Shown in pieces: positions 42,830 through 51,455 of a stretch of 64,000 bases of DNA. The stretch comes from an uncultured Candidatus Melainabacteria bacterium. GTDB taxonomy: Bacteria; Cyanobacteriota; Vampirovibrionia; Gastranaerophilales; Gastranaerophilaceae. The notes under the pieces are model-generated. The model did no database searches. It worked only from the letters and a program-made list of their open reading frames with translations, and was not told the DNA's origin. Numbering within the stretch: the stretch's first letter is position 1; each line of letters opens with the position of its first letter. Made by a program: the position numbers and the translations under genes. The stretch lies in the NCBI GenBank assembly GCA_949902595.1, contig CATLDC010000010.1, forward strand, positions 1-64,000, written 5' to 3'.

Positions 42830-43951
42830 CTACCTCACATAAACTCTTGGCAGACGCACTTTTAGTCTGCATGTAAGTTCATAATTAATAGTATCTAATA
42901 TTTTCGCCCAACTATCAAGCGTCAAATCCTCATCGTCCAAGAGCGTTACCACATCGCCGACATTGGCCTCAACACCGGATAGGTCAAACATCATCTGATC
43001 CATGGTTATGTTTCCGACCTGACGTACTTTTTGCCCGTTTATCTTACCGCAAATCTTGTTGGAAAGGCTTCTTGAAACCCCGTCCGCGTAACCAATCGGT
43101 ATTGTAGCAACTTTTGTCGGCTCTTGAGCGACAAATTTGTGGCAGTAGCTTACGCCTTCGCCGGCTTTTACTTCATGAATATTTGTAATCCTGCCTTTTA
43201 AGCCCATAATCTGCTTAAGTTTTGGTCTGTAGTTGTACTTTGGCGGCAAGTCCGGATAAAGCCCGTAGAGCGAGATTCCGACACGCACCATGTTTGATTT
43301 AAAATTATAAGAGAAGGTTGCAGCAGTGTTCTGGATATGAATCAAGAGCCCTGATGTGTCAATGTTTTCAATAACGCTGTTCCATCTTGAGACCTGTTTT
43401 TCTGTTTCTTCCGGCTCTTCGGCTGCTGCAAGGTGGGTAAACACACCTTCGAATCTCAAGTACTCTGATTTTCTAACCTGTTCAATGAACTCAACTGCGT
43501 CTTCCGAGCGCACCCCGATTCGGTTCATGCCGGTATCAATCTTGACATGTACAATCGGTTTTATTCCTGTTCTTTCAAAAACCTCGCGGCAAACTTTGAG
43601 GTGCTCTTCGTTAAACACAGAAAACGCAATATCATTTCTTGCAGCGGATTCGATTGCCCAAAGCGGGATTGCGCCCACAACAAGAATCGGGCATTTTATT
43701 TTCACATTCCTCAAATCCAAGCCTTCGTCCACAGAAGATACGCCCAACATATCGACACCTGAGGCGAGCATTGTCTGCGCAAGCATTGCAGCACCGTGGC
43801 CGTAGGCGTCAGCTTTAACGATTGCCATGAATTTCTTGTCTTTTGGAATCCCTTTTTTTATTTCAAGAATATTCTGCGCCAGAGACTCAAGATTAATCTC
43901 AACCCACGCATCTTTGTGAATATTTACGTTTGATTGTCTTACGTTTTTCAT
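42830..43951 (-). CDS. alr: alanine racemase
   Basis: Makes D-alanine for peptidoglycan. The 373-residue fold-III PLP enzyme has AIVKADAYGHGA near residues 43-54 with the PLP-binding Lys46, and GEGVSYCHKF near 260 with the second catalytic Tyr. The ATG at 43951 has GAAAGGAT upstream; the longer frame begins inside the terminal repeat of the adjacent DUF559 cassette. Because this ribosome site is only a few bases from the cassette edge, the insertion has left alr translation intact. Confidence 0.95.
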   Translation of the reverse strand: MKNVRQSNVNIHKDAWVEINLESLAQNILEIKKGIPKDKKFMAIVKADAYGHGAAMLAQTMLASGVDMLGVSSVDEGLDLRNVKIKCPILVVGAIPLWAIESAARNDIAFSVFNEEHLKVCREVFERTGIKPIVHVKIDTGMNRIGVRSEDAVEFIEQVRKSEYLRFEGVFTHLAAAEEPEETEKQVSRWNSVIENIDTSGLLIHIQNTAATFSYNFKSNMVRVGISLYGLYPDLPPKYNYRPKLKQIMGLKGRITNIHEVKAGEGVSYCHKFVAQEPTKVATIPIGYADGVSRSLSNKICGKINGQKVRQVGNITMDQMMFDLSGVEANVGDVVTLLDDEDLTLDSWAKILDTINYELTCRLKVRLPRVYVR

Positions 43952-43962
43952 TTTAATCCTTT

Positions 43963-44029
43963 CCCTCTCCATCGGGAGAGGTCGCAGTTGTGCTTGAGCT
44001 TTGCGAAAGCTACAAATGCGGGTGAGGGT
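43963..44029. repeat. left terminal inverted repeat of DUF559 cassette 1
   Basis: Outer hairpin CCCTCTCC-ATC-GGGAGAGG, then TCGCAG, a middle hairpin (AGCTTT-GCG-AAAGCT), then ATGC and GGTGAGGGT. The outer 25 bp (43963-43987) are exactly repeated in inverted form at 44408-44432, and the inner GGTGAGGGT at 44369-44377. The repeat encodes the last eight codons of the nuclease gene. Confidence 0.85.
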
Positions 44030-44363
44030 TAATCCCCTCTTCTAATTTTATTATAACTCCATCAATATTTTCATATATCTCATTGTTCCAAAATCTAATA
44101 ACTTTATATCCTAACCCCTCTAAATATTTGGTTCTTTCAGTATCAGATATAATATTTTCAGGTTCATTATGCTGACCACCATCAATTTCAACAATAATCT
44201 TAGCTTCTTTGCATATAAAATCAACAATATATTTACCTATAGGGTGTTGGCGCTTAAACTTTAAATTATGAAACTGCCTGTTTTTTAAAAGATTCCAGAG
44301 GCGCTTTTCCTGAATTGTTGAGTTTTTTCGAAGTTCACGTGCTAAGATATTTTTTTCGTTCAT
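44010..44363 (-). CDS. DUF559 endonuclease-like protein (cassette 1)
   Basis: A 117-residue DUF559 protein, a Vsr-related PD-(D/E)xK-like nuclease family. Basic helix TIQEKRLWNLLKNRQFHNLKFKRQ (about residues 16-39), then GKYIVDFICKEAKIIVEIDGGQH with catalytic-type Asp near 49 and Glu-x-Asp near 59-61, and YLEGLGYKVIRFWNNEI near 84-100. Its start codon lies just inside the right inverted repeat, whose GGTGAGGGT may act as ribosome site, and its last residues (GINPHPHL) are encoded by the left repeat. It is in the same direction as miaB and alr, so it is probably cotranscribed. Role in element mobility is inference. Confidence 0.88.
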   Translation of the reverse strand: MNEKNILARELRKNSTIQEKRLWNLLKNRQFHNLKFKRQHPIGKYIVDFICKEAKIIVEIDGGQHNEPENIISDTERTKYLEGLGYKVIRFWNNEIYENIDGVIIKLEEGINPHPHL

Positions 44364-44368
44364 GTTTG

Positions 44369-44433
44369 ACCCTCACCAGCATCCGTAACTCACTTACGTT
44401 CGAACGGCTGCGACCTCTCCCGATGGAGAGGGG
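44369..44433. repeat. right terminal inverted repeat of DUF559 cassette 1
   Basis: Inverted partner of 43963-44029: inner ACCCTCACC, middle segment with the palindrome CGTTCGAACG, then CTGCGACCTCTCC and the closing GGAGAGGG. The outer part is identical to the left copy, while the middle is different in sequence but can again form a hairpin. Confidence 0.85.
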
Positions 44434-44439
44434 AAAAAG

Positions 44440-45747
44440 CTATACCATCTCACCATTCAGGTACCAGGTGCGCGCATTTGTTATTTTAACATTTACAAAC
44501 TCGCCTGTAATATCCCTGTCATAAGGAATATGAACAATCTTGTTGTTTCTTGTGCGCCCTGTGATTACACTTTTGCCTTTTCTGATTTCAAACTTCTCAA
44601 CAAGAACTTCAAGCTCGCGCCCCACGTATTTTTTATTGGATGCAAGACAACAAGCGCGGTTGTGCTCGTTCAATCTGGCAAGACGGTCGGTTTTTACATC
44701 CTCATCAATGTATAAATCAACCCACTTTGCTGCAACGGTCTTCTCTCGCGGTGAATAAGCCGCGGTGTTGGAATAATCAAGCTCCAACTCACTCATTGCC
44801 TTCAAAGTATTCTGGAACTGCTCCTCTGTTTCACCCGGGAACCCCGCAATAAAATCGCTTGTAATCGTAACATCCGGAATCCGGCTTCTAAGATTGTCGC
44901 AAATCTTTTTGTAAGTCGCGTAATCATACCTGCGGTTCATTTTCTTTAAAACATAATCATCTCCTGACTGCATCGGGATGTGGAAATACTCGCAAACCTT
45001 GTCCAGCTCGATTACAGTATCAATAAGCTCTTCTGTGATATCGGTTGGGTAAGATGTCACAAATCTGATTCTGAAATTCCCCTCAAGCGCGTTGACTTCC
45101 CGCAAAAGTCTTGAAAGATTCCAGCCTTCAAGGTCTTTGCCGTAAGAATCAACATTCTGCCCGAGAAGCGTAATTTCTTTAAACCCTTCTGAAAGCGCTT
45201 TTTTTGCTTCATTCAGAATGAGTTCAGGCTTTCTGGAACGCTCACGGCCGCGCGTGTACGGCACAATACAGTATGTGCAGAAGTTGTTGCAGCCTTCCAT
45301 AATCGGAATCCACGCATTAACGCTTTTTACACGGTTAATCTGGATGTCGCTTTCTTCGAACGGTTTTTCTTCAACAGAAACAACCCTCTCGCCAGCCTCG
45401 ATTCTTTTTACAAGATTCGGAAGTTCATAAAGCCTTTGAGTGCCCAAAACCAAATCCACGTATGGCGCACGGCGGAATAGGTCTTTGCCTGCCTGCTGTG
45501 CAACGCAGCCGGCAAAAACAATCTTCAAATCAGGCTTGTTCTTTTTCCATTTACCCCAGACCCCGATTGCACTGTATGCCTTGTCTTCTGAAAGCTGTCT
45601 GATTGAGCAGGTGTTGATAATTAGCATGTCAGCTTCTTTCGGCTCCTCTGTCTGGGTGTATCCAAGATGTTCAAGCATTCCGAACATACGTTCTGCGTCA
45701 GATTTGTTCATCTGACAACCAAGTGTTTCTATATATACCTTTTTCAT
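44440..45747 (-). CDS. miaB: tRNA-2-methylthio-N6-dimethylallyladenosine synthase
   Basis: Methylthiolates i6A37 in tRNAs reading UNN codons. The 435-residue protein has the UPF0004 domain with cluster Cys residues at 11 (LGCQMN), about 47 (NTCSIRQ) and about 81 (AGCVAQ), the radical SAM motif GCNNFCTYCIVPYTRGRERSR near residues 152-172, and a C-terminal TRAM domain ending NARTWYLNGEMV. AAGGGA precedes the ATG. Part of the operon sigma-gcvPB-miaB-(cassette)-alr-tonB-like. Confidence 0.96.
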   Translation of the reverse strand: MKKVYIETLGCQMNKSDAERMFGMLEHLGYTQTEEPKEADMLIINTCSIRQLSEDKAYSAIGVWGKWKKNKPDLKIVFAGCVAQQAGKDLFRRAPYVDLVLGTQRLYELPNLVKRIEAGERVVSVEEKPFEESDIQINRVKSVNAWIPIMEGCNNFCTYCIVPYTRGRERSRKPELILNEAKKALSEGFKEITLLGQNVDSYGKDLEGWNLSRLLREVNALEGNFRIRFVTSYPTDITEELIDTVIELDKVCEYFHIPMQSGDDYVLKKMNRRYDYATYKKICDNLRSRIPDVTITSDFIAGFPGETEEQFQNTLKAMSELELDYSNTAAYSPREKTVAAKWVDLYIDEDVKTDRLARLNEHNRACCLASNKKYVGRELEVLVEKFEIRKGKSVITGRTRNNKIVHIPYDRDITGEFVNVKITNARTWYLNGEMV

Positions 45748-50957: not shown

Positions 50958-51015
50958 GCGCGTATGTCCCTTCTCCCCTGTGTGGGAGAAGGTGGGCGGA
51001 GCCCGGATGAGGGGA
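50958..51015. repeat. left terminal inverted repeat of DUF559 cassette 2
   Basis: 58 bp. Outer 37 bp (50958-50994) contain CCCTTCTCCC-CTGTGT-GGGAGAAGG and recur exactly inverted at 51419-51455. The middle is GGGC-GGA-GCCC here but GCCC-GGA-GGGC in the other repeat. The inner GGATGAGGGGA is again shared. Confidence 0.9.
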
Positions 51016-51043
51016 GCAATCGTTTTCATGCTAAAATTTAATA

Positions 51044-51391
51044 ATGGAACACCTCAAAAAATTTGCAAAAACGCTTAGAAAAGAGCAAACTCGTCCAGAA
51101 CAAATCATGTGGCACATACTACGTGAACGCCGGTTTTTCGGGCTTAAATTTCGCCGTCAGGTTCCGCTTAATAAATATATTGCAGACTTTGCCTGTTTTG
51201 AAAAGAAAGTAATCATTGAGCTAGACGGCAGAGAACATCTAGAGGAAGACGGTATTATCAAAGACAAAATCAGAACCGAGTATTTGGAGGATATTGGGTT
51301 CCGGGTTATTAGGTTTTATAATACGGATGTTCTGAATCATCTGGAAATTGTTTTGGAATTTTTGTATAGAGAATTGATTTCAGGGGAGTGA
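51044..51391 (+). CDS. DUF559 endonuclease-like protein (cassette 2)
   Basis: A 115-residue DUF559 protein, homologous to but clearly different from the one at 44010-44363. TRPEQIMWHILRERRFFGLKFRRQ (residues 16-39), NKYIADFACFEKKVIIELDGREH with the catalytic-type Asp and Glu-x-Asp (43-65), and YLEDIGFRVIRFYNTDVLNH (79-98). No strong ribosome site is close to the ATG; GAGGGGAG of the repeat lies about 30 nt upstream. A Vsr-like nick or cut activity is the family expectation; role in mobility is inferred. Confidence 0.88.
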   Translation: MEHLKKFAKTLRKEQTRPEQIMWHILRERRFFGLKFRRQVPLNKYIADFACFEKKVIIELDGREHLEEDGIIKDKIRTEYLEDIGFRVIRFYNTDVLNHLEIVLEFLYRELISGE

Positions 51392-51397
51392 AATTGT

Positions 51398-51455
51398 TCC
51401 CCTCATCCGCCCTCCGGGCACCTTCTCCCACACAGGGGAGAAGGGACATACGCGC
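51398..51455. repeat. right terminal inverted repeat of DUF559 cassette 2
   Basis: Inverted partner of 50958-51015, equal in length. It begins 6 nt after the nuclease stop codon. Confidence 0.9.

Follow-up and report, generated by a model that had tools for sequence, protein, structure and literature searches.

We propose, with a probability of roughly 0.7, that a 476-bp cassette (0.48 kb) at the miaB-alr junction of this genome is a minimal selfish mobile element with one gene, driven by the presumed catalysis of its nuclease and presumably copied, and that its ends also spread alone, as REP-like solo repeats. The proposal builds on what we observed: an association of the gene with repeats, inverted ends, insertion polymorphism, a genome with two copies, in-frame insertion and conserved candidate catalytic residues. 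The features of the window, by which we mean the whole 64-kb stretch of DNA analysed, are as follows.

43960..44435, minus strand: the entire 476-bp cassette at the miaB-alr junction, with inverted arms; missing from this junction in a sister genome (L144)
44010..44363, minus strand: DUF559 gene for a predicted nuclease of 117 aa (Pfam E 7.8e-41; AlphaFold2 model; Foldseek)
43960..44032, plus strand: terminal repeat on the alr side, with the hairpin CCTCTCC-ATCG-GGAGAGG, a middle hairpin and the putative third-strand word GGTGAGG
44366..44435, minus strand: terminal repeat on the miaB side, in inverted orientation
42830..43972, minus strand: alr, the downstream host gene (named by NCBIfam)
44440..45747, minus strand: miaB, the upstream host gene (named by NCBIfam)
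50969..51444, plus strand: second cassette of the same type, with arms at 50969-51013 (plus) and 51400-51444 (minus) and a DUF559 gene between them

A preliminary description of this DNA had placed a DUF559 gene between inverted repeats, and the whole between miaB and alr in operon orientation; both statements were borne out. The outer arms (43960-43987 and 44408-44435, 28 nt) are 96% complementary and the inner arms (44008-44032 and 44366-44390, 25 nt) 80% complementary, and miaB, the DUF559 gene and alr follow one another on the minus strand as an operon. The alr open reading frame as listed begins within the repeat; alignment to the empty site puts the start at ATGAAAAACG, near 43952. Target duplication at miaB-alr amounts to at most 2 bp (AT). 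No methyltransferase lies next to the DUF559 gene, the adjacent genes being alr and miaB (further neighbours in the window were judged by their ORF translations only).

The encoded protein belongs to the DUF559 family (PF04480; 138.8 bits against a gathering score of 20.6), and the sole other profile that it matches, more weakly, is the MTES_1575 nuclease; with these two as its only profile matches, it is not a tyrosine HuH transposase of the RAYT type. Across 36 aligned domains, the invariant residues include T16, E19, R38, D48, E59, D61, H65, D74 and R77. An AlphaFold2 model of the 117-aa protein (mean pLDDT 86) matched, in Foldseek, the catalytic domain of I-Bth0305I (3r3p, E 1.6e-5), Vsr (1cw0, E 2.4e-3) and a gonococcal endonuclease-like protein (3hrl), which matches by sequence as well. 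The predicted model thus has the Vsr-like fold by which EDxHD homing endonucleases are recognized, and we infer from it that the DUF559 protein is a Vsr/EDxHD-type nuclease of the homing type. One passage of an earlier study places a cyanobacterial DUF559 gene in the EDxHD homing family (PMC9403480), and a section of another lists Legionella segments with a transposase and DUF559 among recombination hotspots (PMC12308824).

Each arm was said to hold a terminal hairpin, a middle hairpin and an inner word, and we found all of these, the inner words being GGGTGAGGG and GGTGAGGG. Folded as single-stranded DNA, the left arm beats 200 of 200 shuffles (z -5.5), and the right arm is weaker (z -1.8, with 10 of 200 shuffles equally good). 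The pattern CTCTCCNNNNGGAGAGG, with at most one mismatch, occurs four times in the 64-kb window against 0.02 expected. The hairpin GGAGAGG and the word GGTGAGG of this cassette fit an antiparallel purine triplex in which the word would be the third strand, and the cassette at 51 kb fits one too, with the hairpin GGGAGAAGG and the third-strand word GGATGAGGG. The repeats of the two cassettes had been called unrelated in detail; this is right for their letters and wrong for their pairing rule, which is common to both. The view that the two are distinct members of a single element type is upheld. The triads are perfect on all four window arms (7/7 and 9/9). A scan of the 64 kb for a hairpin with a mirror third strand returned four units, exactly the arms of the 44-kb and 51-kb cassettes, and six resampled windows returned none. 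The window arms also conform to the rule that defines PIT/TM repeats, namely a purine 3' hairpin arm plus a mirror third strand with G on G and A or T on A. Over 251 hairpins from family flanks, a hairpin's own third strand scored a mean of 0.803, compared to 0.753 (sd 0.0055) for shuffled partners, and was perfect in 37% versus 12%. A direct-repeat reading of the same hairpins scored 0.778, likewise above the shuffled mean. Judged from the letters, then, an antiparallel purine triplex is the favoured pairing rule for these repeats, yet it is not isolated from the direct-repeat reading.

There are three DUF559 genes in the genome, the third in a cassette outside the window. One hairpin type occurs at about 31 sites (0 for the reversed pattern), nearly all of them solo, and the most abundant solo type has no bracketed DUF559 gene of its own here. 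One solo repeat lies in frame within ilvD (L030:523, G000 contig 1, about 385.8 kb), where it is read TSPQPSPQGEG. At five loci (L025, L026, L036, L041 and L048), two repeat types stand close together with no gene between, as in REPINs; part of the E. coli literature reports similar pairs of types A and B (PMC4666352). In another comparison (L042 versus L322), the hairpin loop of a solo repeat has about 50 extra bases in the sister genome.

Of the 146 genomes in a family search, 101 had DUF559 matches, a figure that counts weak ones in long frames resembling helicases. (Such weak DUF559-like matches in long proteins, with frames of about 1040 aa and 1440-1530 aa, occur in many genomes and lie outside the element.) We analysed 92 distinct cassettes, 87 of them with full flanks. 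Inverted arms scoring at least 18 were found at 58 of these 87, compared to 1/285 shifted windows and 19/520 mismatched pairs. PIT units lay on both sides of 57/92 DUF559 genes (0/291 shifted controls) and on either side of 77/92 (15/291). The preliminary description had held that DUF559 genes without repeats, or repeats flanking unrelated genes just as often, would speak against the element. Genes of the former kind exist but are a minority, 15/92 having no detected PIT unit. Solo repeats do adjoin other genes; bracketing pairs were absent from the shifted controls, from miaB flanks (both sides 0/23, either side 2/23) and from priA flanks (both sides 0/28, either side 3/28).

Repeat type and nuclease clade covary, a check that the same description had put forward: for the 68 of 92 cassettes with one clear repeat type, the nuclease tree carries 10 label changes against a shuffled mean of 23.2, and 0/200 shuffles were as low. 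One genome (G040) has the same cassette at two loci, with 89% similarity over 508 nt that begins at the outer repeat. In 30/57 intergenic cassettes, a TATAAT-like box is found no more than 30 nt from the ATG, compared to 6/57 for a control 300 nt upstream. One repeat pattern is present in 24/146 genomes and is enriched where DUF559 is strong (16/51 versus 8/95 others; Fisher p 5.5e-4), with 8 of the 24 positive genomes having no strong DUF559. At shared sites, the identity of the nucleases is mostly below that of the host genes.

Contiguity of miaB and alr in relatives lacking the cassette had also been raised, and the junction is indeed uninterrupted in the nearest relative examined (MiaB 99% identical) and at 14 other loci. 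The 30 miaB loci of the genus thus comprise 15 in which alr directly follows miaB without a repeat, 5 with a cassette, repeat or repeat pair, and 10 with another neighbour in the stretch examined; for this junction, parsimony favours a gain in the window's genome. At the same junction after miaB, one locus (L156) carries a pair of inverted units that enclose no gene. Separately, length variation in MiaB near residue 206 was considered as in-frame repeat inserts and rejected: it is a natural variable loop without repeat peptide at the 11 MiaB loci checked (four genomes with split MiaB matches fall outside those 11). As for solo repeats, a clear empty site was seen in the sister genome (83% complete) for 4 of the 22 compared. 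Each of these four sites shows 1 to 5 replaced bases and a gap of 56-65 nt, longer than the repeat, and no target duplication was seen. The replaced bases and the excess length mean that the solo data fall short of clean transposition.

Cassettes also sit within host proteins, a stop-free frame of at least 200 aa surrounding 33 of the 92. By their flanking peptides, the hosts of all but a few are PriA (7), IspE (6, plus one fused upstream of IspE), HydE at its C-terminus (6), an M14-type peptidase (5), PrmA (2) and a UvrD-type helicase (2); profiles confirmed PriA, IspE, M14, HydE and PrmA on one representative each and the UvrD-type helicase on two. The PriA linker measures 186-204 aa when filled, whereas most relatives with an empty linker have about 40-60 aa (one has 90), in a comparison of 30 loci of which 8 had no readable linker. 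The PriA-site nucleases, 7 copies from five genera, form one clade (100/83), as do the 6 HydE-site copies (94/86). The IspE-site nucleases fall into two clades that match two genera; together with nuclease identity mostly below host identity, this is as compatible with slow vertical descent as with homing. To go by the reading frames, the arms are translated wherever the cassette sits in frame.

The arms also resemble an Rfam family. Whalefall-1 (RF01762) matches the alr-side arm at 43961-44029 on the plus strand (E 2.3e-5, 28.6 bits) and the miaB-side arm at 44369-44434 on the minus strand (E 0.032, 18.8 bits), both below the gathering threshold of 37 bits, so the window arms stay outside formal membership. 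Matches at E 0.001 occur in 38 of the 146 related genomes, and matches above the threshold in 3. Of the 90 matches listed, 14 are no more than 300 nt away from a DUF559 domain, compared to about 0.09 expected under random placement. An Rfam search of 20 loci at the gathering threshold gave no match.

The association extends beyond this order. From a scan across genomes of bacteria and archaea, we took the best 80 of at least 553 DUF559 loci and dropped two at contig ends. Of the resulting 78, we counted the 57 neither titled nor grouped as Gastranaerophilales, mostly from other phyla; the remaining 21 overlap the family set in part (L173 and G040 contig 3 agree in length and range) and were not treated as independent. 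Against shifted controls pooled over all 78 loci, the 57 had arms scoring at least 15 in 38 cases (0/279), a PIT unit on either side in 48 (8/279) and PIT units on both sides in 16 (0/279). A further 28 DUF559 loci from viral contigs stand outside these flank counts. Beside the DUF559 gene of a Nitrospirae MAG (L192), the downstream flank holds a repeated unit with the hairpin word. Counts of one repeat type in 17 genomes with a DUF559 locus ranged only from 0 to 13 per genome, which means that this type is not abundant as a rule. A candidate occurrence of Cedecea cassette DNA in E. coli was rejected: the query matched 5350/5426 genomes through its flank at bcsG, coverage reached 80% in 0, and no E. 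coli record covered the cassette.

We suggest the following route. The element would consist of a Vsr/EDxHD-type nuclease gene between two inverted structured repeats, each a hairpin with a triplex third strand of the PIT/TM type. Its nuclease would nick or cut an unoccupied target, or a repeat exposed as a single strand, after which the cassette would be copied in by the repair or replication of the host. When only the ends are acted on, this machinery would scatter solo repeats over the genome, much as RAYT scatters REPs, and the element would settle where it does least harm, at gene junctions or in frame in the linkers of host proteins. Nuclease action on repeats or empty sites, followed by host copying, would explain the ends, the sites, the solo copies and the spread. 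Nuclease activity, repeat recognition, the way in which the cassette is copied and the movement of solo copies in trans are steps that we infer. Several observations count against this reading: the most abundant solo type lacks a bracketed DUF559 gene of its own here, 15/92 cassettes show no PIT unit, and, in particular against simple active homing, target duplication is lacking beyond a possible 2 bp, some genomes have repeats and no strong DUF559, and nuclease identity is mostly below that of the host genes.

A narrower account, which we regard as rather unlikely, is that of a site-specific homing gene that spreads through gene conversion after cutting its unoccupied site; its repeats would not be mobilised and would be either passive or a protection for the ends. 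The single clades at the PriA and HydE sites, the patchy occupancy of one PriA linker and the predicted fold of a homing enzyme all suit it. It sits poorly with the many unlinked sites and one cassette at two loci in G040, and with solo repeats that have empty sites and a repeat type that tracks nuclease clade. Less probable again is that the repeats come from another system, such as replication slippage or some transposase, and that DUF559 is a passenger caught between two of them. Repeats in 8/95 genomes without strong DUF559 agree with this, as do, in the part of the published record that describes them, E. coli K-12 repeats with no mobility gene nearby (PMC4666352). The bracketing of 57/92 DUF559 genes and 0/291 shifted windows, the recurrence of the association in other phyla and the repeat's excess in DUF559-positive genomes argue the other way.

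Two further accounts seem to us improbable by a wide margin. The arms could be a structured non-coding RNA, given that both match whalefall-1 below threshold and that a passage by its authors grades this family a certain RNA (PMC2864571). Yet the arms of one gene point in opposite directions, they are translated in the in-frame cases, their copies are many and genome-wide, and the listed matches near DUF559 genes far exceed chance. Least credible, by a little, is a host function as an orphan restriction gene or Vsr-like repair gene with terminator hairpins. The predicted Vsr-like fold and the hairpins at both gene ends would suit it; within the window no methyltransferase is adjacent, presence is sporadic, and insertions occur within unrelated proteins. 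A wider form of the mobile-element reading, to which we give somewhat less than even odds, is that these cassettes are a distinct bacterial element class, in which a single Vsr-type nuclease recognises hairpin-triplex ends and copies itself into junctions and, in frame, into genes for housekeeping proteins. The PIT-type and whalefall-1 repeats of many phyla would then stem from it.

Four points go beyond the preliminary description: the rule of triplex pairing, the connection with PIT/TM and whalefall-1, the existence of solo copies and the in-frame housekeeping insertions. Triplex repeats are abundant in bacteria, and a nuclease that they bracket makes their origin directly testable: it offers a candidate gene source for a widespread repeat family previously without a known gene. 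The data further suggest that the Rfam non-coding RNA whalefall-1 may really be the end of a DNA element; they give DUF559 a function hypothesis, and they indicate that a nuclease cassette is tolerated in frame in PriA, IspE and others without an intein. Searches of the open literature for DUF559 with inverted repeats, and for PF04480 with endonuclease and repeat, returned no paper, which does not imply absence from print.

Among known systems, the nearest are the PIT/TM or "potential intrastrand triplex" repeats, which include TMECO of E. coli; passages of Holder et al. (2015) report triplex formation in vitro for TMECO and state that gene-context analysis never revealed activities conferring mobility (PMC4666352). 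To judge from those passages, the two share a purine 3' hairpin arm, a short loop, a mirror third strand, many copies, inverted pairs and strain variability; here, however, a nuclease gene is bracketed, the long form adds a middle hairpin, and the spacer is 36-39 nt, compared to the loops of 1-6 nt allowed in that search. Whalefall-1 has the same order of CUCUCC hairpin, middle hairpin and GGGUGAGG, but a section of Weinberg et al. (2010) describes it as a non-coding RNA from whale-fall samples only (PMC2864571), whereas in our cassettes its behaviour is that of the end of a mobile DNA. I-Bth0305I (EDxHD, Vsr-like) is alike in predicted fold and differs in that our cassette lies outside any intron or intein, has structured inverted ends and can be in frame without a splicing domain. 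In REP/RAYT systems (REPINs), hairpin repeats bracket one small mobility gene, and non-autonomous copies are solo or paired. The cassettes share the bracketing hairpin repeats around one small gene and the solo and paired copies; RAYT is a HuH tyrosine transposase, whereas here the gene encodes a predicted Vsr-type nuclease and the GTAG tag is absent. Finally, Rickettsia palindromic elements are palindromic repeats that lie in frame in proteins, and the insertion described here differs from them in that it can bear a whole nuclease domain.
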